Of a DNA stretch of 63,942 nucleotides, positions 14,063 through 24,770 are shown piece after piece. Each line of letters starts with the position of its first letter. Position 1 is the first letter of the stretch. Position numbers and translations under genes: made by a program. Source of the stretch: Anaerolineae bacterium (lineage in GTDB: Bacteria; Chloroflexota; Anaerolineae; DRVO01); contig JABLXR010000020.1 in NCBI GenBank assembly GCA_013178015.1, positions 1-63,942 of the forward strand, written 5' to 3'. The notes beneath the pieces were generated by a model. That model did no database searches and was not told the DNA's origin. It worked only from the letters and a program-made list of their open reading frames with translations.

Positions 14063-14257
14063 CTAGCCGAAGGCGTCTATCACCTGCTTGGCCAGAGCCA
14101 ACGCCGTCATGCCGATGCCGGTGATGTCGGTGGCGCTGGGGCCGGCGGGCTTCCTGCTCCCCGAGCGCCGAGAAGCGACCACGGCGCCCAGCAGGGCGCC
14201 CAGGGTCCCGCCGATGATGGCACCGACGAGAATGCTTTTAGCTCCCACCTTACCCAC
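14063..14257 (-). CDS. Small YtxH-like single-membrane-span protein
   Basis: 64 residues starting with GTG, with GGAGG 7 nt upstream. One glycine-zipper hydrophobic segment (ILVGAIIGGTLGALLGAVVA, residues about 9-28) is followed by a basic patch SRRSGSRKP and a short amphipathic tail. This is the layout of YtxH/general-stress-type small membrane proteins, but the match is by composition only. It overlaps the preceding membrane-protein gene by 8 nt and ends the kinase operon. Confidence 0.6.
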   Translation of the reverse strand: MGKVGAKSILVGAIIGGTLGALLGAVVASRRSGSRKPAGPSATDITGIGMTALALAKQVIDAFG

Positions 14258-14561
14258 GGTACGACCTCCAGACTCTGCTTCGCGGGGAGCTTACCAGGGA
14301 GGCGACGGTGGCGATGGCCGACGCCAGGGCCGCCAAGGCAACGAACGGGGCGGCCGCGTATCCCACGTACTGCTCCACGTAGTCTCGCCCGCGCACGGCT
14401 GCCACCTGCCAGACGGGGAAGTTGATGGCCAGCCAGTGCCGGAAACCCCGCAGATAGCGGACGGCGAAGTAGCCGACCGCTAGCATGGGCAGACCGACCA
14501 GGAAGAACTCCAGAGCCAGAAGCACTATGGAAGCATCGCGCCAACCGGCCAGATCACCCAT
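14250..14561 (-). CDS. Small membrane protein, unknown function
   Basis: 103 residues with two hydrophobic segments: about 10-34 (SIVLLALEFFLVGLPMLAVGYFAV) and about 65-90 (APFVALAALASAIATVASLV). A basic, aromatic linker (RYLRGFRHW) lies between them. ATG 14561 is chosen because AGGAG lies 8 nt upstream. It overlaps the HAD gene upstream (8 nt) and the YtxH-like gene downstream (8 nt). I do not recognise the family. The two small membrane proteins may form a pair. Confidence 0.65.
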   Translation of the reverse strand: MGDLAGWRDASIVLLALEFFLVGLPMLAVGYFAVRYLRGFRHWLAINFPVWQVAAVRGRDYVEQYVGYAAAPFVALAALASAIATVASLVSSPRSRVWRSYRG

Positions 14562-15246
14562 CTCGCTTACTCCTGCTCTCCGCAACCACACGCCAGCTGC
14601 CATTATTCACTAACCCGATGAGGGAATCCATACGATCTATCATGAAGTCGGGAGTCACGTCGAAAGCCTCTGCCGCTCTGGTAGTAGTGAGCCCCACCGA
14701 GACCATCCCCGCTGCCTGGGCAGCCTGGATGTCGGTGGGATGGTCTCCCACCATGATGGAGCAGCCTGGGGAGGCGCCTAGCAACCTTAGCCCCTCCAGA
14801 AGGTGCTCGGGATTGGGCTTGACGTGGCGGACGTCGTCGCGACTGAGGAGCACGTCGAAGGGCAGACCGTGCCGCACTGCCACTTCTAGGACTGCTGGTC
14901 GGCAGTTCCGGGTGACGATGCCCAGCCTGATGCCCCGAGCCCGCAGCCAGGCCAGCGTCTCCGGAACTCCTGGTAGGGGTCGGGCATCCCGGGCCGCCAT
15001 GAGCTCCACCTCACGTATGCTGGCCAGGGCGTCCCGCTGGAAAGCAGCGGCGATGGCCTCGTCTCGGGCGGCCAGGCGGTCGCGAACCGACTCCACTAGC
15101 TCCAGGGTGAACCGGCTGCCGCCCTCTGCCGTCTCGCCATAGCGGTGGATAACGTCCACGGCACCCTGGCGCATGGCCTGGAAGTCAATAGTGATGTGCA
15201 CCAGAGTGCCATCGAAATCGAACAAGACAGCCTGCGGCAGGCTCAT
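14554..15246 (-). CDS. HAD superfamily hydrolase (phosphoglycolate phosphatase-like)
   Basis: 230 residues. All four HAD motifs are present: FDFDGTL (motif I, nucleophile and acid Asp, residues 9-15), GIVTRN (motif II), the lysine in HVKPNPEH (motif III) and MVGDHPTDI (motif IV). A helical cap lies between motifs I and II, as in the Gph/PGP group. It should dephosphorylate a small metabolite in the cytosol. Its ATG overlaps the stop of the kinase-like gene upstream (ATGA), which ties expression of the two together. Confidence 0.85.
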   Translation of the reverse strand: MSLPQAVLFDFDGTLVHITIDFQAMRQGAVDVIHRYGETAEGGSRFTLELVESVRDRLAARDEAIAAAFQRDALASIREVELMAARDARPLPGVPETLAWLRARGIRLGIVTRNCRPAVLEVAVRHGLPFDVLLSRDDVRHVKPNPEHLLEGLRLLGASPGCSIMVGDHPTDIQAAQAAGMVSVGLTTTRAAEAFDVTPDFMIDRMDSLIGLVNNGSWRVVAESRSKRDG

Positions 15247-18200
15247 TCGGTGATCACCACCTCAACCTCTCCCCTCCATTCGCCGATCGCCACGACAACC
15301 ACTGCTCCAATCTCCTGGCCCGCCGGCGGGCTCTCCGCTACCACTCTGAGCCGGGCCCGATGGCCCGGCCTGATGGTAAGCTGCCTGGGCCGGACGCTCA
15401 GCCAGGCAGCCGAGGCCTGCGCTATGCCGTCTGCCGTCGCCCGGCCGGCATTCCGGACGATGATAATGCCTTCCATCCCCGGCTTCAAGACCAATCGGTC
15501 CGGGGTCAGCTCGATCTGGGGACGCGCCACTACCCGCAGCCGGAGCTCGACCTCGGCCTCGCCACCGTTGGAGGACACGAACAATGCGCCCGGCAGCGTC
15601 ACTTCACCCGGGTGCATGTCCTGGGGAGGCTGGGCGGCAATGGCGACAGTCTCAGATCGGCCGCTGGCTATAGAGACCTCGGGGTCCAAAACGGACACCC
15701 AAGGCACCGATGAAGCTACCGCGGCCCGCAGCTCTCCCACTCCCCGGTTGAACAAGATGAGCTGCCCCTGGACGGGGGCGAAGTCCACGCTGTCGGGAAG
15801 GCTCAGAACAGGCTCGACAGCCAGGATAGGCTGGGAGAACGCCACGGTGGCCGGAACCGGTCGGCTGTTGTGGGGCCCGTGGAAGGTCAGGAGGGCGCGG
15901 GCCTGATGGGTGCCCGATGGGACCGCCAGCCCGTAGGCGCGCACCGTCAGAGAGGTCGTCTCTCCTTCCGGGCACACGCCCGAGGAGGGGCTCAGCTCGA
16001 CCCAGGGGGCATCGGTGGTGGCGCTCCAGTGCAGGTCGCCGGTACCGCTGTTAGCGATGGTGAGATGACGCTCGCTTACGCCCTGCTCTGGGATCACTCC
16101 GAAGTCCAAGGAGGCTGGCTCTACCTCGAGCACGGGCTTGACGAGCTTGTAGCGAGCGGCGATGCCGATGTTGCCCCCCTCGCTGCGCACAGCCAGGGCT
16201 GGGCTGGCCTGGTGAGCTCCGGGCTGCTCGGTTGCTGCCTCGGTGAGGGACACGGTGACCACGGTGCTCGATCCGGGCCTCAGGCTGCCCTCGGCCGGCC
16301 TGGCGGCGATCCAGACCACCTGGGGCACCAGCCTGAAGGTGAGCGCTTCGTTCCCTCGGTTGGACAGCACCAGCGAGAGCTGAGCTCTCGCTACCTCATG
16401 GGGCCCGAGAGCTCCGAAGTCCAGGTCATTGTCCGCCACCGCCAGCAGAGGCCGGATGACTTCGACCTCGGCGGCCAGCTGGCGGTTCCCGACCGGGCTG
16501 GTGATGCGGATGGCGGACGGCAGCGTCAATCTGCCGGGCTTGAGAGAGCCGGTATCCAGCCGGGCTGAGACCCGCACCCATTGCCGCGGGGGAACGGTCA
16601 CCTCGGGGGTGATGACGGTGATGGCGTCGTCGGCGGACCGGATGCGGGCGGTGAGGGGTGCGGAGCCGGGGTTAGCCACGATCAACTCCGCCTGGGCTGC
16701 CTCCGGGTGGCGGACCGCGCCGAAGCTCAGGGCTTCGGGCTGGACGCAGAGCTCGGGGCGGCCTCGGCTGAAGGAGACGTCAGCATAAGCTTGGCCTGCA
16801 TCGCTATCCACCAGCAGAGCGCGCGTGAATGTGCCCCCCTCTTCAGGAGCCTCGGGGGTCAGTCGGACCTGAACGGTGGCTGATCGGCCCGCCTCCAGCC
16901 TGACGTCGGAAGTGGACACCTGCAGCCAAGGAACGGCGGTGCTCAGATGAACGGAGAGCTGCCCCCCGCCGGCATTGCTCACAGTGATGGGTTGCGTGGC
17001 GCCCTCGGGCCCAACCAGCCCGAAGTCCAAAGCCTGACGGTCCAGCTCTAGCTCAGGGGCGGGCTCGACCACCTCCGCCGGCACCCAGTGCCGGCCTGCG
17101 GCGATCACCAGCACCGCTCGAGGCACCCGGGAGGTGTGAGCGGGAATCTGGTCTAGATTCGCCCGAATGAGCACGCTGCCCTCTGCGTCTGGGTCCAGCT
17201 CGATCGTGTCCGAGGCAGGCGTGAGCCAGGGGACGGCCGTGCGTACCTGGGCCGTGACTACCCGCTGCAGGTTGTTGCGGAGGCGGAGGCGGTAGCCCAC
17301 CTGACGCCGCTTGGGGCTCCGCACGATGCGCAGGCGCCTGGTAACCACGGTGATGTCTGGCATTGCCGCCGGCCTGGCCGGGGTTGCGGGCGCGGGAGCC
17401 GGAGTCACGGTATCGCCGCTGGGAGCCGTCGCCGGCGCTGCCGCCGGCTGGGCGTCGTCAGCCGGCGCCAGCGCCCGACGCAAGTGGGCCATGCTGGGGT
17501 ACCTCTTGGCCGGGTCCTGGCGGCGGGCGCGCGCCAGAGCCCGGCGGAGAGTGGGAGACAGGTCGGGAGCACCGCGACCGTCCTTAGGACCACGGGCCAG
17601 CAGCAGGAGCAGAGTGCCCAGAGCGTAGATGTCGGACTCAGGCCCGGCATAGGCCTCGGCTGCCTGCTCGGGTGCCTCGAAGGGAGGGGTGCCGCGGTTG
17701 GCCTCCCCGCGCGACTGGCCGGCCCTGAAGTGACGAGAGAGGCCCAGGTCGAGGAGGATGGCGTCTCCCCGCTTGGTGACCATCACGTGCGACGGTTTCA
17801 GGTCGCGAAGAAGGACGGGCGGCTCCTGGGAGTGAAGGAAGGCGATGGCGTCCGCCAGTTGAGCTCCCAACGCTCGCACCTGTGGCTCGAGCAACGGCCC
17901 CCGCCGGTAGATCTCCTGAAGAGTCTCACCCTCGATCCAGGGCATGACCACCCCCACCGAATCCTTATCCCGAAAGTGGGAGAGGATGGGCACCACGCCA
18001 GGGTGGCGGAGAGTCTCTAGGGCAGAGACCTCGCGGAGGAAGTTGGCCAGGGCGGTCCGTTTCTCCTCGGCGGTCACCAGGGCCACGAGGTCCAGGCGCT
18101 TGACGGCCACCGTGTGCCCTGACTGGAGGTCAAGCGCGCGATAGACCGCCGAGGTGCGGCTGCGAGAGGCTTGCTGCAGAACCTGATACCTGCCCGCCAG

Positions 18201-18395
18201 CACGTACAGCTCCCGCCCCAGGGCAGAGCGAGCCGGGCGGCCGCTGACCACCGACTGGCCGCATCGGGGACAGGCGGTGGCATCCCCATCCAGGCCGAAG
18301 CCGCAGCGTGGGCAGGGCAGCCGGAGGCGGGCGCGGCAGTGCTCGCAGGCCACCGCGCCCTCTCGGTTGGGGTAGCCGCATTCGGGGCAGCGCAT
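15243..18395 (-). CDS. Zinc-ribbon / Ser-Thr kinase-like / tandem Ig-repeat protein
   Basis: 1050 residues. Residues 3-45 hold two C-x2-C...C-x2-C zinc ribbons (Cys3/6/17/20 and 28/31/42/45). Residues about 69-320 form a Hanks-type kinase domain with Lys99 (TVAVKRL), Asp198 (LLRDLKPSH) and Asp216 (LLDLGLS). A Pro/Ala linker follows, then about seven Ig-like modules of roughly 90-100 residues, several opening with a L-x-F-G-x-V motif (LDFGLV, LSFGAV, LDFGAL, LDFGVI), as in ASPM/Hydin or BACON-type domains. No membrane span is visible. The glycine-rich loop is degenerate (QASRSRTSAVY), HRD reads LRD, and the metal-binding Asn of the catalytic loop is His203. Catalysis may be altered or lost. 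First gene of a four-gene operon. Confidence 0.82.
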   Translation of the reverse strand: MRCPECGYPNREGAVACEHCRARLRLPCPRCGFGLDGDATACPRCGQSVVSGRPARSALGRELYVLAGRYQVLQQASRSRTSAVYRALDLQSGHTVAVKRLDLVALVTAEEKRTALANFLREVSALETLRHPGVVPILSHFRDKDSVGVVMPWIEGETLQEIYRRGPLLEPQVRALGAQLADAIAFLHSQEPPVLLRDLKPSHVMVTKRGDAILLDLGLSRHFRAGQSRGEANRGTPPFEAPEQAAEAYAGPESDIYALGTLLLLLARGPKDGRGAPDLSPTLRRALARARRQDPAKRYPSMAHLRRALAPADDAQPAAAPATAPSGDTVTPAPAPATPARPAAMPDITVVTRRLRIVRSPKRRQVGYRLRLRNNLQRVVTAQVRTAVPWLTPASDTIELDPDAEGSVLIRANLDQIPAHTSRVPRAVLVIAAGRHWVPAEVVEPAPELELDRQALDFGLVGPEGATQPITVSNAGGGQLSVHLSTAVPWLQVSTSDVRLEAGRSATVQVRLTPEAPEEGGTFTRALLVDSDAGQAYADVSFSRGRPELCVQPEALSFGAVRHPEAAQAELIVANPGSAPLTARIRSADDAITVITPEVTVPPRQWVRVSARLDTGSLKPGRLTLPSAIRITSPVGNRQLAAEVEVIRPLLAVADNDLDFGALGPHEVARAQLSLVLSNRGNEALTFRLVPQVVWIAARPAEGSLRPGSSTVVTVSLTEAATEQPGAHQASPALAVRSEGGNIGIAARYKLVKPVLEVEPASLDFGVIPEQGVSERHLTIANSGTGDLHWSATTDAPWVELSPSSGVCPEGETTSLTVRAYGLAVPSGTHQARALLTFHGPHNSRPVPATVAFSQPILAVEPVLSLPDSVDFAPVQGQLILFNRGVGELRAAVASSVPWVSVLDPEVSIASGRSETVAIAAQPPQDMHPGEVTLPGALFVSSNGGEAEVELRLRVVARPQIELTPDRLVLKPGMEGIIIVRNAGRATADGIAQASAAWLSVRPRQLTIRPGHRARLRVVAESPPAGQEIGAVVVVAIGEWRGEVEVVITE

Positions 18396-18683: not shown

Positions 18684-20888
18684 CTATCGGGTCTCGAGGG
18701 CTCGCAGCCGGTCCGCCAAGCGGGTGTTGCGCTGGGCGACGCGGTTGTTGCGCACGGCCATGGCGATGGCGCGCCGGTCTCCCACCAGGACTACCATCTC
18801 CCGGGCGCGGGTGACGGCGGTGTAGAGCAGGTTACGTTGAAGCATAACGTAGTGCTGCGTCAACAACGGCACGACCACCACCGGAAACTCACAGCCCTGG
18901 GACTTATGGATGCTCAGGGCATAGGCGTGCGCCAGCTCGTCCAGCTGGACGAAGTCGTAGGCGACGGGCCTGCCGTCGAACGAGACTACGATCAGGCCTT
19001 CTTCGAGGTCTATCCCGGCCACGCGGCCCAGGTCGCCGTTAAAGACCTGGCGGTCGTAGTTGTTTCTGATCTGCATCACCCGGTCGCCTACCCGGAAGAC
19101 GCGATGACCGTGCCTGCGCTCAGCACGAGAAGGGCTAGGAGGATTCAGGGCGGCCTGAAGTCGCTCGTTGAGCTCACCCACGCCGGCAGCGCCACGATGC
19201 ATAGGGGCCAGCACCTGGATGTCGTCCATGGGGTCGAAGCCGAACCGGGCCGGGATGCGTCGCGTCACCAATTCGATCACGCGCTCGGCGGCTCGGCGTG
19301 CGTCTCGCTCCGGGAAGAGGAAGAAGTCGCGGGAGTGACGCTCGAAGAGAGGGATCTCGCCCTGGTTGATGCGATGGGCGTTCACGATGATGAAACTGTC
19401 CGGGCTCTGACGGAAGATGGTGTCAAGCCTGGTGGTGGGCACCCGTCGGCTGGCGATCAGGTCGCGCAGGACATTGCCAGGCCCCACGGAGGGAAGCTGG
19501 TCAACGTCGCCCACCAGCAGCAGGTGGCCGCCGGGCGGCACGGCTGCCACTAGATGGTTCATCAGCAGAACATCGATCATCGAGGCCTCGTCCACGATGA
19601 GGATGTCAGCGTCCAGAGGGTTGTCGCGGTCGCGCAGGAAGCGGTACCCAGCCGCCGGCTGGAACTCCAGCAGGCGGTGGATGGTCTTGGCCCCCACTCC
19701 GGTAGTCTCCGTCAGTCGCTTGGCGGCGCGGCCGGTGGGGGCTGCCAACAGCACCGACCGCTCCTTGGCCCGCAGAAGCTGCACTATGCCAGCCACGATG
19801 GTGCTCTTGCCGGTGCCGGGGCCGCCGGTGAGGATGCTGACCCGTTCGGTCAGGGCCATGCGAATGGCGGCCTTCTGCTGGGGCGTCAGGGCTATGGCGG
19901 AGAGGCGGTCGAGCCAGGAGAAGGCGCGATCCCAGTCCACGGTGGCGAAGGCGCCCAGACGGTCCTGGGGTGTGGTCTGGAGCCTATGGATGCGACTAGC
20001 GATGCCCGTCTCTGCGTGGAGGAAGGGAGGCAGATAGACCGCGTCGTCCTCGGCCACCAAGTCGTTCTGGCGCAGCAGGGCTTCCAGCTGGGCTCCGCAG
20101 GCATCGGCGGGAACCTCAAGCAGCTCGGACGCTTGCTGGAGCAACTGCTCCTGGGTCGCGTAGCAGTGGCCCTCGTCGCAGAGAGTGCTGAGGGCGTACA
20201 GCAGGCCGGCCTGCACCCGGGCGGGGGCATCCGGTGCGAGGCCCAGGTTGCGGGCGATCTTGTCGGCAGTCTTGAACCCGATCCCATAGACGTCGCGAGC
20301 CAGGCGGTATGGGTCCTCGCGCACCACAGCCACGGCCTGGTCGCCGTAGTGGCGGTAGATCTTCACCGCCAGCCCGGTGCTGACTCCGTGGCTCTGGAGG
20401 AACACCATCAGATCCTTGATCTGCTTCTGCTCCTCCCAGGCGCGGACGATCATCCCGCTGCGCTTCTCGCCGATGCCCGGCACCTCGAGCAAGCGCGATG
20501 GCGACTCTTCGATGACGTCCATGGCTTCGAGCCCGAAAGCGTTGACCACTCGCGCTGCCGTCACTGGCCCGATCCCCTTTATCAAGCCGCTTCCCAAGTA
20601 CTTGCGGAGCCCCTCAATGGTAGCCGGCAGCTCCACCGAATAGGTGCGAGCTTCGAACTGGCGACCGTACTGAGGATGGTTGGTCCAGCGACCCTGCAAG
20701 CGGACCGATTCGCCCGGGTTGACTCCGGCCAGGGGGCCGACCACCGTCACCAGGTGAGACTTCCCTTTGGGTACCACCCGGGCCACCGTGTAGCCCGTCT
20801 CCTCGCTCTGGAAGGTGAGACGTTCCACGGTTCCCTCAAGGGTCTGCAGGGGGTATTCTGCTCCGACGGGGGTGCTCCCTACGGTCAT
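18684..20888 (-). CDS. recD2: RecD2-type ATP-dependent DNA helicase
   Basis: 734 residues, the usual RecD2 length. The N-terminal OB-like region (TLEGTVERLTFQSEETGYTV) is typical, and helix-hairpin-helix segments follow (GIGPVTAARV, VPGIGEKRSG). The helicase core carries Walker A GGPGTGKST near residue 352, DEASM (motif II), GDVDQLPSVGPG (motif III), and the C-terminal HKSQGCEFPVV and YTAVTRAR motifs. It is a 5'-3' superfamily 1B helicase acting in DNA repair without RecB or RecC. The start at 20888 fits family length. The upstream in-frame extension is low in conserved character and crosses a TACAAT promoter element at 20914-20919. Confidence 0.92.
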   Translation of the reverse strand: MTVGSTPVGAEYPLQTLEGTVERLTFQSEETGYTVARVVPKGKSHLVTVVGPLAGVNPGESVRLQGRWTNHPQYGRQFEARTYSVELPATIEGLRKYLGSGLIKGIGPVTAARVVNAFGLEAMDVIEESPSRLLEVPGIGEKRSGMIVRAWEEQKQIKDLMVFLQSHGVSTGLAVKIYRHYGDQAVAVVREDPYRLARDVYGIGFKTADKIARNLGLAPDAPARVQAGLLYALSTLCDEGHCYATQEQLLQQASELLEVPADACGAQLEALLRQNDLVAEDDAVYLPPFLHAETGIASRIHRLQTTPQDRLGAFATVDWDRAFSWLDRLSAIALTPQQKAAIRMALTERVSILTGGPGTGKSTIVAGIVQLLRAKERSVLLAAPTGRAAKRLTETTGVGAKTIHRLLEFQPAAGYRFLRDRDNPLDADILIVDEASMIDVLLMNHLVAAVPPGGHLLLVGDVDQLPSVGPGNVLRDLIASRRVPTTRLDTIFRQSPDSFIIVNAHRINQGEIPLFERHSRDFFLFPERDARRAAERVIELVTRRIPARFGFDPMDDIQVLAPMHRGAAGVGELNERLQAALNPPSPSRAERRHGHRVFRVGDRVMQIRNNYDRQVFNGDLGRVAGIDLEEGLIVVSFDGRPVAYDFVQLDELAHAYALSIHKSQGCEFPVVVVPLLTQHYVMLQRNLLYTAVTRAREMVVLVGDRRAIAMAVRNNRVAQRNTRLADRLRALETR

Positions 20889-21394
20889 GTCTTGCGCCTT
20901 GCTCCAGTAAGCTATTGTACACCCCGTCGTGTTCCTACCTAAATGACGTGGGGGCTCAGGGTCGAGGGGAAGAACCGAACGGGCCGCGGTGGCCAAGAAG
21001 GGGCGGCAACTTGTCGCAGTTCGGGGCACCGGTGGCGCGGACGACAAGACCGTGCTGACGGGGCTCCCGCCCGCGTTGGGCGCGTGCTTCATGGGCGGCC
21101 GGCTTCCGCCCCTCGTCTGCTGTGCCGCGAGGAGCGCTGGCTCGTCTCCGTTGAAGGCAGTCGTCCGCGCCTGGGGAGGCTCCTTCCTGGTCAGGGGGCG
21201 AGCCATGCCTGCCAGATGCGCTCTCCCCGCGATGTTGCTCAGGCTTGAGTGGCGGCGCCGGTGTGATAGAATGCCCACGCCGGAAGGGAGGCCGTTCTGA
21301 GAAGCAGGCTCAGCCTACTGCTCATGCCTGGAGCCCTTCGGCGCTCTCTCGCACGCATGGGCGGTGAAATGCAAGCCATGGAGGTCCGAGGATC
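20889..21394. other. Divergent intergenic region between recD2 and the histidine kinase
   Basis: About 500 nt holding a minus-strand TACAAT (20914-20919) for recD2 and a plus-strand promoter at 21245-21272 for the kinase. The remaining frames look like chance frames: no ribosome-binding site and no recognisable domain. Confidence 0.55.
21245..21272 (+). promoter_or_regulatory. Promoter of the histidine kinase operon
   Basis: TTGAGT at 21245-21250, a 16-nt spacer, then TAGAAT at 21267-21272 preceded by TGA, an extended -10. The start would be near 21279, about 115 nt before the kinase ATG. The 13-nt core GGTGTGATAGAAT recurs exactly at 41001-41013 upstream of the gyrB operon. Confidence 0.6.
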
Positions 21395-23650
21395 ATGCCA
21401 GCCGGTGCGCGCAGCCTCAGAGATACTGCCGGCCTACGCGGGCCAGGGATGTGGCGCGGGCGCGAGTCGGACTTCCAGGCGTTGCTCGCCGCGGCCCGGT
21501 CTATCCTAGGCCAGCCGGACTTCCAGCACGCTGCCCGCGCCATCTTCGATGCCTGCAAGTCGGTCACCGGGGCAACGGCCGGGTACGTAGCCCTGCTCAC
21601 TCCGGACTCCAAGTTCAACTCGCTGTTGTTTGTGGATGCCGGCGGGTTGACGTGTCTGGCTGACGAGAGCGTGCCCATGCCCATCAGAGGCATGCGCCAA
21701 GAGGCAGTTCGGGCGGGGGTGCCGATCTGGCACAACGACTTCGCTCATAGCCCGTGGTACGGCCTCGTTCCTGAAGGCCACTGCCCCTTGGATAATGTTA
21801 TGTTCGTGCCCCTGATGTCGGGAGGGCGGGCCGTGGGCCTGTTAGGGCTGGCCAACAAACCGGGAGGTTTCCAGGAGAGCGACGCCCAGGCGGCGGAGGC
21901 ATTCGGGGAGCTGGCTGCGGTAGCCCTCACGCACGGCCAGTCAGTGGAGGAACTCAAACGCTACGCGGAGAAGCAGTCCGCTCTGTACCGCGTCAGTTCG
22001 GCTGCCGCGTCCTCGATGGACCCGACGCAGCTTCTGCTGGTGGCTCTCGATACCGTCCTCTGTCACTTTGGCGCCGATGCGGGCTGGGTGACTCTACCCG
22101 GTGCCACCGCGGATGACACGCCGCGTCTAGCTGCTTCGTCGGGGATGTCTCAGCGATTCATCGAGGCGGTGGAGGCACTGCCATGCGCCCGGTGTCCGCT
22201 GCTACGGTCGCTGTTCTACGGGGAGGGGCGGGAGGCCGGCCTGCTCTCAGTGGACAGGTGCGACGTCCTCCCAGCGGATGTGCTGGAGGAAGAGGGCATC
22301 AACGAGCACGTCACCGTCCCTTTGCGGGCCGGGGACAGCACTCTGGGGGCGCTGCACATAGCCTGGCGTGCCGGGCGCCCACCGGTCCTGGATACGGCTC
22401 TGGCCCTGGCAGTGGGCCAGCAGGTAGGCCTGGCGCTACACAATGCCCACCTGTTCCAAGCCGCGCTGCACGCGGATCATTTGCGTACCGTCAATCGGCT
22501 GGACCAGGCTCTGACCGGCTCGCTGAACCCGGAGGAAGTCCAGGAGAGATCTCTCCGGCTGGTGGCGGCGGCGCTGAACGCTCGACTGGGGGCCGTGTTC
22601 GTGCTGGAACGATGGGCGGAGCCCAGTCAGGCTTCGGTGTTCACTCTGAGCCATGGCTGGGTTCGGATGCTCACATCACCCTCAGCGGCCCAGTTTGTGG
22701 ACAGAGTGTTCCGGAGTGCGCCCGACCACCGAAGACCGGTCACCCTGCGACTGGAGGACTTCCAGCACCTGTGCCCGGACGGGCATAGCCGGCTAGCTGA
22801 GAGTTGGGGTTCTGAAGGGCTGCTCATCCCGGTGTGGACCGAGCATCGCCTGATCGCCGCCATGGCCCTGGGTGGGAGGCCGGTGGATCGCCCCTTGACG
22901 GCCGACGATCTGGCTCTGGCGGAGGCGGCGGGGGGCCGGATCGGGCAGGCCATAGAGAACGCGCTTCTCTTCCAGGCGGTTCAGAGGCAGCGCGACGAGC
23001 TGGCGGCCCTGGGTGCCCGGCTGGCCGAGGCCGAGGAAGCCGAGCGGCAGCGGCTGGCGCGGGAGCTCCACGACCAGGTGGGGCAGAACCTCACCGCCCT
23101 CGGGCTGAGCCTCAACCTGGCGCGCATGTACCTGCCTGAGGACGCCTGTCAGTCCGCGGTGACGGCTCTGGACCGCGCCTTGGCGCTGGTGGAGGAGACT
23201 ACTGAGTCCATCCGGAGCGTCATGTCGGCTCTGCGTCCACCCGTTTTGGATGACTATGGCCTGCAGGCGGCGCTGCGCTGGTACGGAGAGCGTCTTGCCA
23301 GCCAGTTCGGGCTGGTGGTCCGGGTTGAGGGCCCTGATCTTGATCCCCGGCTGCCGGATGCAGTGGAGACGGCGATGTTTCGGGTGGCCCAGGAGGCTCT
23401 CACCAACGCGGCCAGACACGCATCGGCGCGCGAGGTCAGAGTGAGCCTGCAGGAGAGCGGTGGGGTGGTGCGACTGGAGATCGTAGATGACGGAGTGGGG
23501 TTCGACACGGAGGCGGTGCGAGCGCGCACCGAGGGCGGGGGGTGGGGCCTCCTGTCCATGTCCGAGCGCTGCGCGGCGGTGGGGGGCACGTTCCGGTTGG
23601 AGTCGGAGCGCGGCCGTGGGACCCGAGTCACTATGGAGATAGCCCGGTGA
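21395..23650 (+). CDS. Multi-GAF sensor histidine kinase (NarX/DegS-type HisKA_3)
   Basis: 751 residues with no membrane segment, so probably a cytosolic sensor. Three GAF-like regions can be assigned (about 30-185, 195-340 and 355-530), and a coiled linker leads to the dimerisation domain. The phosphoacceptor is His559 in ERQRLARELHDQVGQNL, the HisKA_3 H-box. The C-terminal ATPase domain shows EALTNAARHA (N-box), DDGVGFD (G1) and GGWGLLSMSERC (G2). GGAGGT lies 9 nt before the ATG. The stop overlaps the GTG of the next gene (GTGA), coupling it to its response regulator. The signal sensed by the GAFs is unknown. Confidence 0.9.
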   Translation: MPAGARSLRDTAGLRGPGMWRGRESDFQALLAAARSILGQPDFQHAARAIFDACKSVTGATAGYVALLTPDSKFNSLLFVDAGGLTCLADESVPMPIRGMRQEAVRAGVPIWHNDFAHSPWYGLVPEGHCPLDNVMFVPLMSGGRAVGLLGLANKPGGFQESDAQAAEAFGELAAVALTHGQSVEELKRYAEKQSALYRVSSAAASSMDPTQLLLVALDTVLCHFGADAGWVTLPGATADDTPRLAASSGMSQRFIEAVEALPCARCPLLRSLFYGEGREAGLLSVDRCDVLPADVLEEEGINEHVTVPLRAGDSTLGALHIAWRAGRPPVLDTALALAVGQQVGLALHNAHLFQAALHADHLRTVNRLDQALTGSLNPEEVQERSLRLVAAALNARLGAVFVLERWAEPSQASVFTLSHGWVRMLTSPSAAQFVDRVFRSAPDHRRPVTLRLEDFQHLCPDGHSRLAESWGSEGLLIPVWTEHRLIAAMALGGRPVDRPLTADDLALAEAAGGRIGQAIENALLFQAVQRQRDELAALGARLAEAEEAERQRLARELHDQVGQNLTALGLSLNLARMYLPEDACQSAVTALDRALALVEETTESIRSVMSALRPPVLDDYGLQAALRWYGERLASQFGLVVRVEGPDLDPRLPDAVETAMFRVAQEALTNAARHASAREVRVSLQESGGVVRLEIVDDGVGFDTEAVRARTEGGGWGLLSMSERCAAVGGTFRLESERGRGTRVTMEIAR

Positions 23651-24300
23651 TCAGCGTCTACCTGGCAGACGATCACGCAGTGGTGAGGGACGGCTTGCGG
23701 TCGCTGCTGGAGGCGCACCCGGGAATCCGAGTGGTGGGGGATGCGGCTACGGGCAGCGAGGCAGTGCAGGAGATCGCCCGGCTGAGGCCGAATGTGGCCG
23801 TCGTAGACATCGCCATGCCGGTGCTCAACGGCATCGAAGCTGCTCGCCAGGTGGCGCAGGTCTCTCCTGACACCCGAGTGATCATCCTGTCGGTGCACTC
23901 CTCGTCCGAGCACGTCTTTCGGGCTTTGCAGGCGGGAGCTCGCGGCTACCTGCTCAAGGAGTCGGCAGGTGCCGAAGTGGTGGACGCCGTGCGCGCGGTG
24001 GCGCTGGGGGAGCGCTACCTGTGTCGGAGGGTCAGCGACGCCATCACCGAGGATTACGTGAGGTACCGGGAAGCGGCGGACGCGGACAGCCCCCTGGCCC
24101 GGCTGAGCGATCGCGAGCGGGAGGTGCTTCAGCTAGTGGTGGAAGGCCGTTCTTCGGCCGAGATCGCCCAGCGGCTCTTCCTGTCTCCCAAGACGGTGGA
24201 CACGTACCGCAGTCGTCTTATGCACAAGCTGGGGGTGCACGACGTGCCCGGTTTGGTCAAGTTCGCTATCCGCCACGGGGTGATCTCGTTGGACGGCTGA
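23647..24300 (+). CDS. NarL/FixJ-family response regulator
   Basis: 217 residues. The receiver domain (about 1-120) has the acidic pair Asp8/Asp9, the phosphoacceptor Asp54 (VVDIAMP) and a conserved Lys in LLKESAG. The C-terminal LuxR-type helix-turn-helix begins at LSDREREVLQLV and includes SAEIAQRLFLSPKTVDTYRSR. The GTG start at 23647 is chosen because it overlaps the kinase stop and places the first strand correctly. A longer upstream frame would be inside the kinase gene. It is the evident partner of that kinase. Confidence 0.92.
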   Translation: MISVYLADDHAVVRDGLRSLLEAHPGIRVVGDAATGSEAVQEIARLRPNVAVVDIAMPVLNGIEAARQVAQVSPDTRVIILSVHSSSEHVFRALQAGARGYLLKESAGAEVVDAVRAVALGERYLCRRVSDAITEDYVRYREAADADSPLARLSDREREVLQLVVEGRSSAEIAQRLFLSPKTVDTYRSRLMHKLGVHDVPGLVKFAIRHGVISLDG

Positions 24301-24341: not shown

Positions 24342-24770
24342 TCAGAGCGGGGCAGACGGAGTCAGACCGCGCTGCACCTTGGGGCTGAGGTAGTGCCCAC
24401 CGCCGTGCACCGTACGCACGGCGGTGGCGATCTCAGTGCCGGCGCTCTCCTTGGCTACGTATGCGCTGGCGCCGGCGGCCAGGGCGCGCTGGACGTACTC
24501 GGGAGTGCAGTGCATGGAGAGCATCACTACTTGAGTGGACGGGCAGAGCTGCCGAATGCGGCGCGAGGCCTCTATCCCGTCTACGTGCGGCATCACGACG
24601 TCCATGATGAGCACGTCTGGCTGCAGTCGCTGCACCAACCCCAGGGCTTCGGCGCCGTCGGCCACATCTCCCACCACCTTCATATCGGGTTGGAGTGCCA
24701 GGAGGCTGCGCAGAGCGGCGCGCACGCCGACGTGGTCGTCGACGATCATGATGGTGATAGGCTCGGTCAT
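24342..24770 (-). CDS. Receiver-only response regulator (NarL-type without DNA-binding domain)
   Basis: 142 residues. The receiver has Asp11/Asp12, the phosphoacceptor Asp57 (IMDVVMP), Thr/Ser switch positions and YVAKESAG with the conserved Lys. The sequence closely parallels the receiver of the neighbouring NarL regulator. The chain stops at 24342, about 20 residues after the receiver, so the LuxR helix-turn-helix is missing. Only 41 nt separate its stop from the end of the convergent regulator gene, so there is no room for the lost domain. It could be a phosphate sink or protein-interaction output, or a truncated duplicate. Confidence 0.82.
   Translation of the reverse strand: MTEPITIMIVDDHVGVRAALRSLLALQPDMKVVGDVADGAEALGLVQRLQPDVLIMDVVMPHVDGIEASRRIRQLCPSTQVVMLSMHCTPEYVQRALAAGASAYVAKESAGTEIATAVRTVHGGGHYLSPKVQRGLTPSAPL

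Follow-up and report, generated by a model that had tools for sequence, protein, structure and literature searches.

A candidate pseudokinase scaffold family in Anaerolineae with a zinc ribbon and a cytosolic array of seven immunoglobulin-like modules

The window, the whole stretch of DNA analyzed here, comprises 63,942 nucleotides of contig JABLXR010000020.1 from an Anaerolineae bacterium (assembly GCA_013178015.1). It encodes a 1050-amino acid (aa) protein that joins an N-terminal double zinc ribbon to a kinase-like domain and a long array of immunoglobulin-like (Ig-like) modules. The original prediction, made from the sequence alone, described a Hanks-type kinase domain with degenerate catalytic residues, about seven tandem Ig-like modules and no membrane span. 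The features of the gene are as follows, with window positions first.

15243..18395, minus strand: coding sequence, 1050 aa, for double zinc ribbon, pseudokinase-like domain and seven Ig-like modules
18258..18389, minus strand: double zinc ribbon, residues 3-46 (Pfam DZR, E 1e-7; conserved columns)
17460..18200, minus strand: kinase-fold domain, residues 66-312 (Pfam Pkinase; AlphaFold2 (AF2) model)
18150..18167, minus strand: degenerate glycine loop SRSRTS, residues 77-82 (sequence reading)
18099..18101, minus strand: Lys99, the VAIK lysine, retained (sequence reading)
17787..17810, minus strand: catalytic loop LRDLKPSH, residues 196-203 (sequence reading)
17742..17750, minus strand: DLG with Asp216, retained (sequence reading)
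17358..17459, minus strand: Ala/Pro-rich linker, residues 313-346 (conserved columns)
17058..17357, minus strand: Ig-like module 1, residues 347-446 (repeat boundaries)
16758..17057, minus strand: Ig-like module 2, residues 447-546 (Pfam; repeat boundaries)
16452..16757, minus strand: Ig-like module 3, residues 547-648 (Pfam; repeat boundaries)
16137..16451, minus strand: Ig-like module 4, residues 649-753 (Pfam; repeat boundaries)
15831..16136, minus strand: Ig-like module 5, residues 754-855 (conservation; AF2 model, predicted local distance difference test (pLDDT) score 96.6; related folds)
15525..15830, minus strand: Ig-like module 6, residues 856-957 (repeat boundaries; relatives)
15246..15524, minus strand: Ig-like module 7, residues 958-1050 (repeat boundaries; relatives)

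Profile searches, proposed with the original prediction as a check, bear out both the zinc ribbon and the kinase domain (Pfam Pkinase, residues 80-268, E 2e-30) and also match the Ig-like units. The C-terminal two-thirds of the protein gives many Pfam matches to HYDIN/VesB, BACON_2, Cep192 and ASH, the repeats matching PF22544 (E 7e-27) and PF19190 (E 4e-24), and repeat boundaries turn the estimate of about seven modules into exactly seven of 93-105 aa each, filling residues 347-1050. The eight cysteines of the zinc ribbon are kept family-wide, and the Ala/Pro-rich linker is the least conserved segment of the protein. Hydropathy analysis (Kyte-Doolittle) finds no membrane span or signal peptide, the highest 19-residue mean being 1.31, as had been predicted; an extracellular or membrane-tethered location of the Ig-like modules is thereby ruled out. 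Their presence in the cytosol, initially regarded as an oddity, stands as a location and loses much of its strangeness, because the closest folds are intracellular protein-binding domains of the ASH/HYDIN/Cep192/MSP type. Modeled with AF2 on an alignment of the seven repeats of the protein itself, module 5 forms an Ig-like sandwich with high confidence (pLDDT 96.6); among its nearest solved folds in Foldseek are the ASH domain of OCRL1 with Rab8a, HYDIN, CEP192 and the MSP domains of VAP. The kinase model, built on a shallow four-row alignment, has a mean pLDDT of 70, and its nearest structures in the PDB are Stk1, PknA and PknB.

This architecture recurs across the class. A profile built from nine members was run against a class-wide sample of 396 genomes and detects the family in 26, as a single copy in each and spread over seven taxonomic families; most of the 26 are matched over their full length, and a few are cut by contig ends. 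In the phylum-wide sample, no full-length member occurs outside the class, where only the kinase part is matched, and a search of genome contigs, which provided the sole coverage of other phyla, returned three ordinary kinases only. The window's own genome contains no paralogue, its other four kinases lacking this architecture. Another large kinase of this genome (1291 aa; L006:3791-7666, on contig 7 of G000) carries, by eye, a long tetratricopeptide repeat-like array after hydrophobic stretches, with a HLDLKPAN loop and a DFG motif. In the family's relatives, the seven-module array is collinear with that of the window protein, and every module is about 100 aa long. Same-numbered modules are the match in 28 of 49 comparisons: window modules 1, 2, 5 and 6 mostly find their counterparts, module 5 does so in all seven relatives tested and is the best-conserved module, and best match does not resolve the correspondence of modules 3, 4 and 7. 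These comparisons show the zinc ribbon, the kinase fold and the predicted ASH/MSP-type array of seven modules to be inherited together across seven families.

What varies within this stable architecture is the active site, which was compared between 25 readable family members and a set of 27 kinases, zinc-ribbon or related, that lack the Ig array. The catalytic-loop asparagine is absent from every member (His in 21, Arg in two, Asp and Val in one each). The HRD aspartate survives in 8/25 and the catalytic-loop lysine in three; the DFG aspartate is kept in 15 and lost in 10, the VAIK lysine is retained in 19/24, and the αC-helix glutamate in 8/24. The fold core is kept alongside this decay, with Asp255 of the αF-helix and Arg298 present in 25/25 members and the APE glutamate in 24/25. 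An f36 member, which reads FLSPxH and GLG at these motifs, is predicted to be dead. Each of the 27 kinases that lack the array retains the full set of five canonical residues. Likewise, in a broader scan of retrieved loci, the D-x-K/R-P-x-[N/H] loop could be read in 68 kinases; its last residue is asparagine in 65 and histidine in three, and all three of the latter belong to the Ig-array family. With the trait columns removed before tree building, at least four changes are needed at each of Lys99, Asp198 and Asp216. A count of changes cannot in itself tell gain from loss, but loss is the plain reading, since the outgroup kinases are intact. The Ig-family kinase domains fall on one side of a branch with a Shimodaira-Hasegawa-like approximate likelihood ratio (SH-aLRT) support of 97; that tree was built quickly and has a few long branches, which calls for caution. 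A fold and architecture that stay while catalytic residues are lost again and again are what a non-catalytic function would be expected to leave behind.

Within this range, the window protein sits near the intact end. It retains the VAIK lysine, the HRD aspartate and the DFG aspartate, all three, where most family members miss at least one, and its catalytic loop keeps Asp198 and Lys200 with His203 in place of the asparagine. Set against the full active-kinase pattern (GxGxxG, K, E, HRDxKxxN, DFG), it lacks any glycine in the glycine loop and the asparagine. The individual residues are thus as originally read, including the LRD and DLG motifs, but not all of them speak for degeneracy. Among intact zinc-ribbon kinases from the same class, FRD and YRD are the usual readings and HRD also occurs, and DLG is present in an otherwise intact neighbor kinase (L050:9554-11068); neither LRD nor DLG therefore marks decay by itself. 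The lesions that do inform, by this comparison, are N203H and the loss of the glycine loop. A same-genus relative, G001, whose gene is split across two contig ends (53-60% identity), likewise reads LRDLKPSH and DLG.

The gene leads an operon, in which three further genes follow it on the same strand.

14554..15246, minus strand: HAD-IA hydrolase, 230 aa, with motifs DFDGT, VTRN, KPNP and GDHPTD intact
14250..14561, minus strand: small membrane protein, 103 aa, two hydrophobic stretches, no family
14063..14257, minus strand: 64-aa glycine-zipper-like membrane protein (weak matches only; hydropathy)

The HAD-IA gene shares an ATGA overlap with the pseudokinase gene, and 8-nucleotide overlaps join the HAD gene to the membrane protein gene and the latter to the small protein gene. 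G001 keeps the same order, with identities of 75% for the HAD protein, 59% for the membrane protein and 52% for the small protein, so the predicted operon of kinase, HAD phosphatase and paired small membrane proteins is well founded. The further suggestion that these proteins form a regulated complex with the kinase fares less evenly: the conserved order supports it within the genus, but distant members have other neighbors, and the HAD protein is excluded as a general partner of the family, its linkage being limited to the window's genus. Upstream by about 290 bp lies a RecD2-like helicase gene on the same strand (18684-21278), which was not seen in the relatives' loci examined. Beyond it (21395-24300 and 24342-24770), reading by eye suggests a sensor histidine kinase of the GAF type with a response regulator of the LuxR type behind it and, close by on the opposite strand, a second stand-alone receiver domain.

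Other lineages have different neighbors. In taxonomic family f36, a gene for a DarA-type cyclic di-AMP (c-di-AMP) receptor (PF06153) lies directly downstream in 12 of 13 loci, the thirteenth ending at a contig edge, and this conserved synteny hints at a role in c-di-AMP signaling. The DarA-like gene is short (about 95 aa, for example L093:9239-9526) and occurs across many genera; in most of these loci, a convergent lactate-racemase-like (Lar_N/DUF362) gene comes after it. PF06153 genes also occur twice in the window genome, on contigs other than that of the pseudokinase. In taxonomic family f24, mreB stands beside two of four loci (L052:4525-5529, confirmed by Pfam, and L082:4343-5404), and ATP-synthase-like genes were noted by eye close to L082 and L083. 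Because neighbors vary in this way between lineages, no partner is established for the family. The same variation, together with the placement of the window genome's PF06153 genes, suggests that partners are lineage-specific or unlinked.

We favor, with moderate confidence, the reading of this protein as a soluble, single-copy signaling scaffold built on a pseudokinase, in which a kinase fold and an Ig-like rod serve lineage-specific partners. Phosphorylation would no longer be the selected job of the kinase fold, which may instead act as a switch or docking surface, and which could still respond to nucleotides where decay has gone least far, as in the window's member. The Ig-like rod, above all module 5, would bind partner proteins. 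For the window's genus, plausible candidates are the products of the translationally coupled genes, namely the HAD phosphatase and the pair of small membrane proteins, the latter perhaps holding the complex at the membrane; for f36, the DarA-type receptor is a plausible partner. A fuller version, on which we are more tentative and which we would back at rather less than even chances, is of an undescribed, class-restricted pseudokinase family whose active sites range from near-intact to wholly dead, with a non-catalytic histidine for asparagine, an ASH-type cytosolic scaffold and coupling to c-di-AMP in one lineage.

Several observations weigh against the scaffold reading. Firstly, the genomic neighbors themselves differ between lineages. 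Secondly, a long stem of 1.1-1.5 changes per column leads to the pair of the window member and G001, which makes their exact position in the family less sure than their membership. Thirdly, both keep Lys99, Glu122, Asp198, Lys200 and Asp216. Finally, rough NG86 estimates of the ratio of nonsynonymous to synonymous substitution rates (dN/dS) in the window lineage, where synonymous sites are near saturation, are about 0.24 for the kinase domain, 0.15 for the zinc ribbon and 0.38-0.40 for the Ig modules. Purifying selection on the kinase domain in itself counts in favor of the reading, but the domain appears to be under tighter constraint than the Ig modules, which would fit persisting ATP binding or catalysis. 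The window protein is among the least decayed of its family, and given this and the stronger selection on its kinase domain, nucleotide binding or weak activity may persist in this lineage.

The strongest competitor, which we consider unlikely yet serious, is an active unorthodox kinase, in which His203 replaces the asparagine as metal ligand in the window's genus and phosphorylation is perhaps opposed by the HAD protein. The five retained residues, the constraint on the kinase domain and the overlap with a phosphatase-fold gene all suit it. However, the histidine persists in relatives without the HRD aspartate, the catalytic lysine and the DFG aspartate, and because these are lost there, it is not kept for catalysis in those relatives. 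The glycine loop also contains no glycine at all. HAD-IA enzymes act mostly on small-molecule substrates, and the HAD protein reaches no specific NCBIfam equivalog cut-off; both points count against this rival. Improbable by comparison is a kinase fold repurposed for other ATP-dependent chemistry, for which SelO and SidJ, with AMPylation or glutamylation, are precedents. The frequent retention of the VAIK lysine and, less often, the DFG aspartate, with the HRD aspartate mostly lost, resembles those two proteins loosely, as a 2025 review describes them (PMC12599244), but the DFG aspartate is gone in 10/25 members and the conserved columns hold no alternative acidic or basic active-site set. A sequencing error or decaying pseudogene, for which the degenerate motifs might speak and which the original prediction tied to a normal asparagine in close homologues, can be dismissed, given identical lesions in G001, a 1050-codon open frame, purifying selection and family-wide conservation.

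The family can be compared with several known systems. Its closest counterparts in the same phylum are zinc-ribbon Ser/Thr kinases (for example L098, L097, L059; DZR + PF00069), which are likewise soluble and place a homologous kinase domain behind an N-terminal zinc ribbon (about 31-36% identity to the window protein); unlike the window protein, they have all catalytic residues intact, lack the seven-module array and lie on the other side of the supported branch. The closest solved kinase folds and best partial NCBIfam match are the PASTA kinases PknB/Stk1 (107 bits against a cut-off of 450), which differ in being membrane-anchored and catalytically active, with extracellular PASTA repeats. 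HYDIN, CEP192 and OCRL1 share the Ig-like fold class (ASH/HYDIN/MSP, PapD-like), an intracellular location and protein binding, some of them in arrays, but are eukaryotic proteins of cilia, centrosomes and trafficking with no such pseudokinase attached.

Seven families of bacterial pseudokinases, ActPs1-3, GLW, CP1, DYD and DLHK, appear in the same review alongside EssB/YukC, SidJ and SelO (PMC12599244). The seven share with the window family a bacterial Ser/Thr kinase (bSTK) fold with degraded motifs, and CP1 and DLHK are also soluble. By the descriptions in the review, however, ActPs3, GLW, CP1, DYD and DLHK differ in motif pattern, partner domains and taxonomy, and none of these five fits. 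DLHK pseudokinases have a degraded VAIK lysine and DFG and keep the HRD aspartate and loop asparagine, whereas the window family reverses this, with the lysine kept and the asparagine lost. CP1 pseudokinases are linked to a COG3899 ATPase domain, which Pfam and NCBIfam scans do not find in the window protein, where the Ig array stands instead. ActPs3/MviN shows complete motif loss, an activation-loop deletion and often a C-terminal membrane span; the window protein keeps part of its motifs and has no such span. EssB/YukC and MviN likewise use the kinase fold as a non-catalytic scaffold but are membrane-anchored, of unrelated architecture, and serve the type VII secretion system or peptidoglycan synthesis. 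For the pseudokinases compared here, the review mentions no zinc ribbon, Ig modules or Chloroflexi (PMC12599244).

A literature search on Chloroflexi/Anaerolineae pseudokinases, zinc-ribbon kinases and ASH-bearing bacterial kinases returned nothing relevant, although the family may form an unnamed cluster in the original large-scale bSTK classification. It is a real, conserved and apparently undescribed family, probably a bacterial pseudokinase scaffold, with a new architecture. To our knowledge, few families of bacterial pseudokinases are known, hardly any of them with an established function. The present family unites, under one recognizable single-copy architecture, active sites in many different states of decay, and intact kinases closely related to it can serve as controls. 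This allows a direct approach to the question of when, and for what reason, a kinase of bacteria ceases to be an enzyme. It would also place an ASH/HYDIN-type Ig array, whose eukaryotic relatives are protein-binding scaffolds, in the bacterial cytosol.

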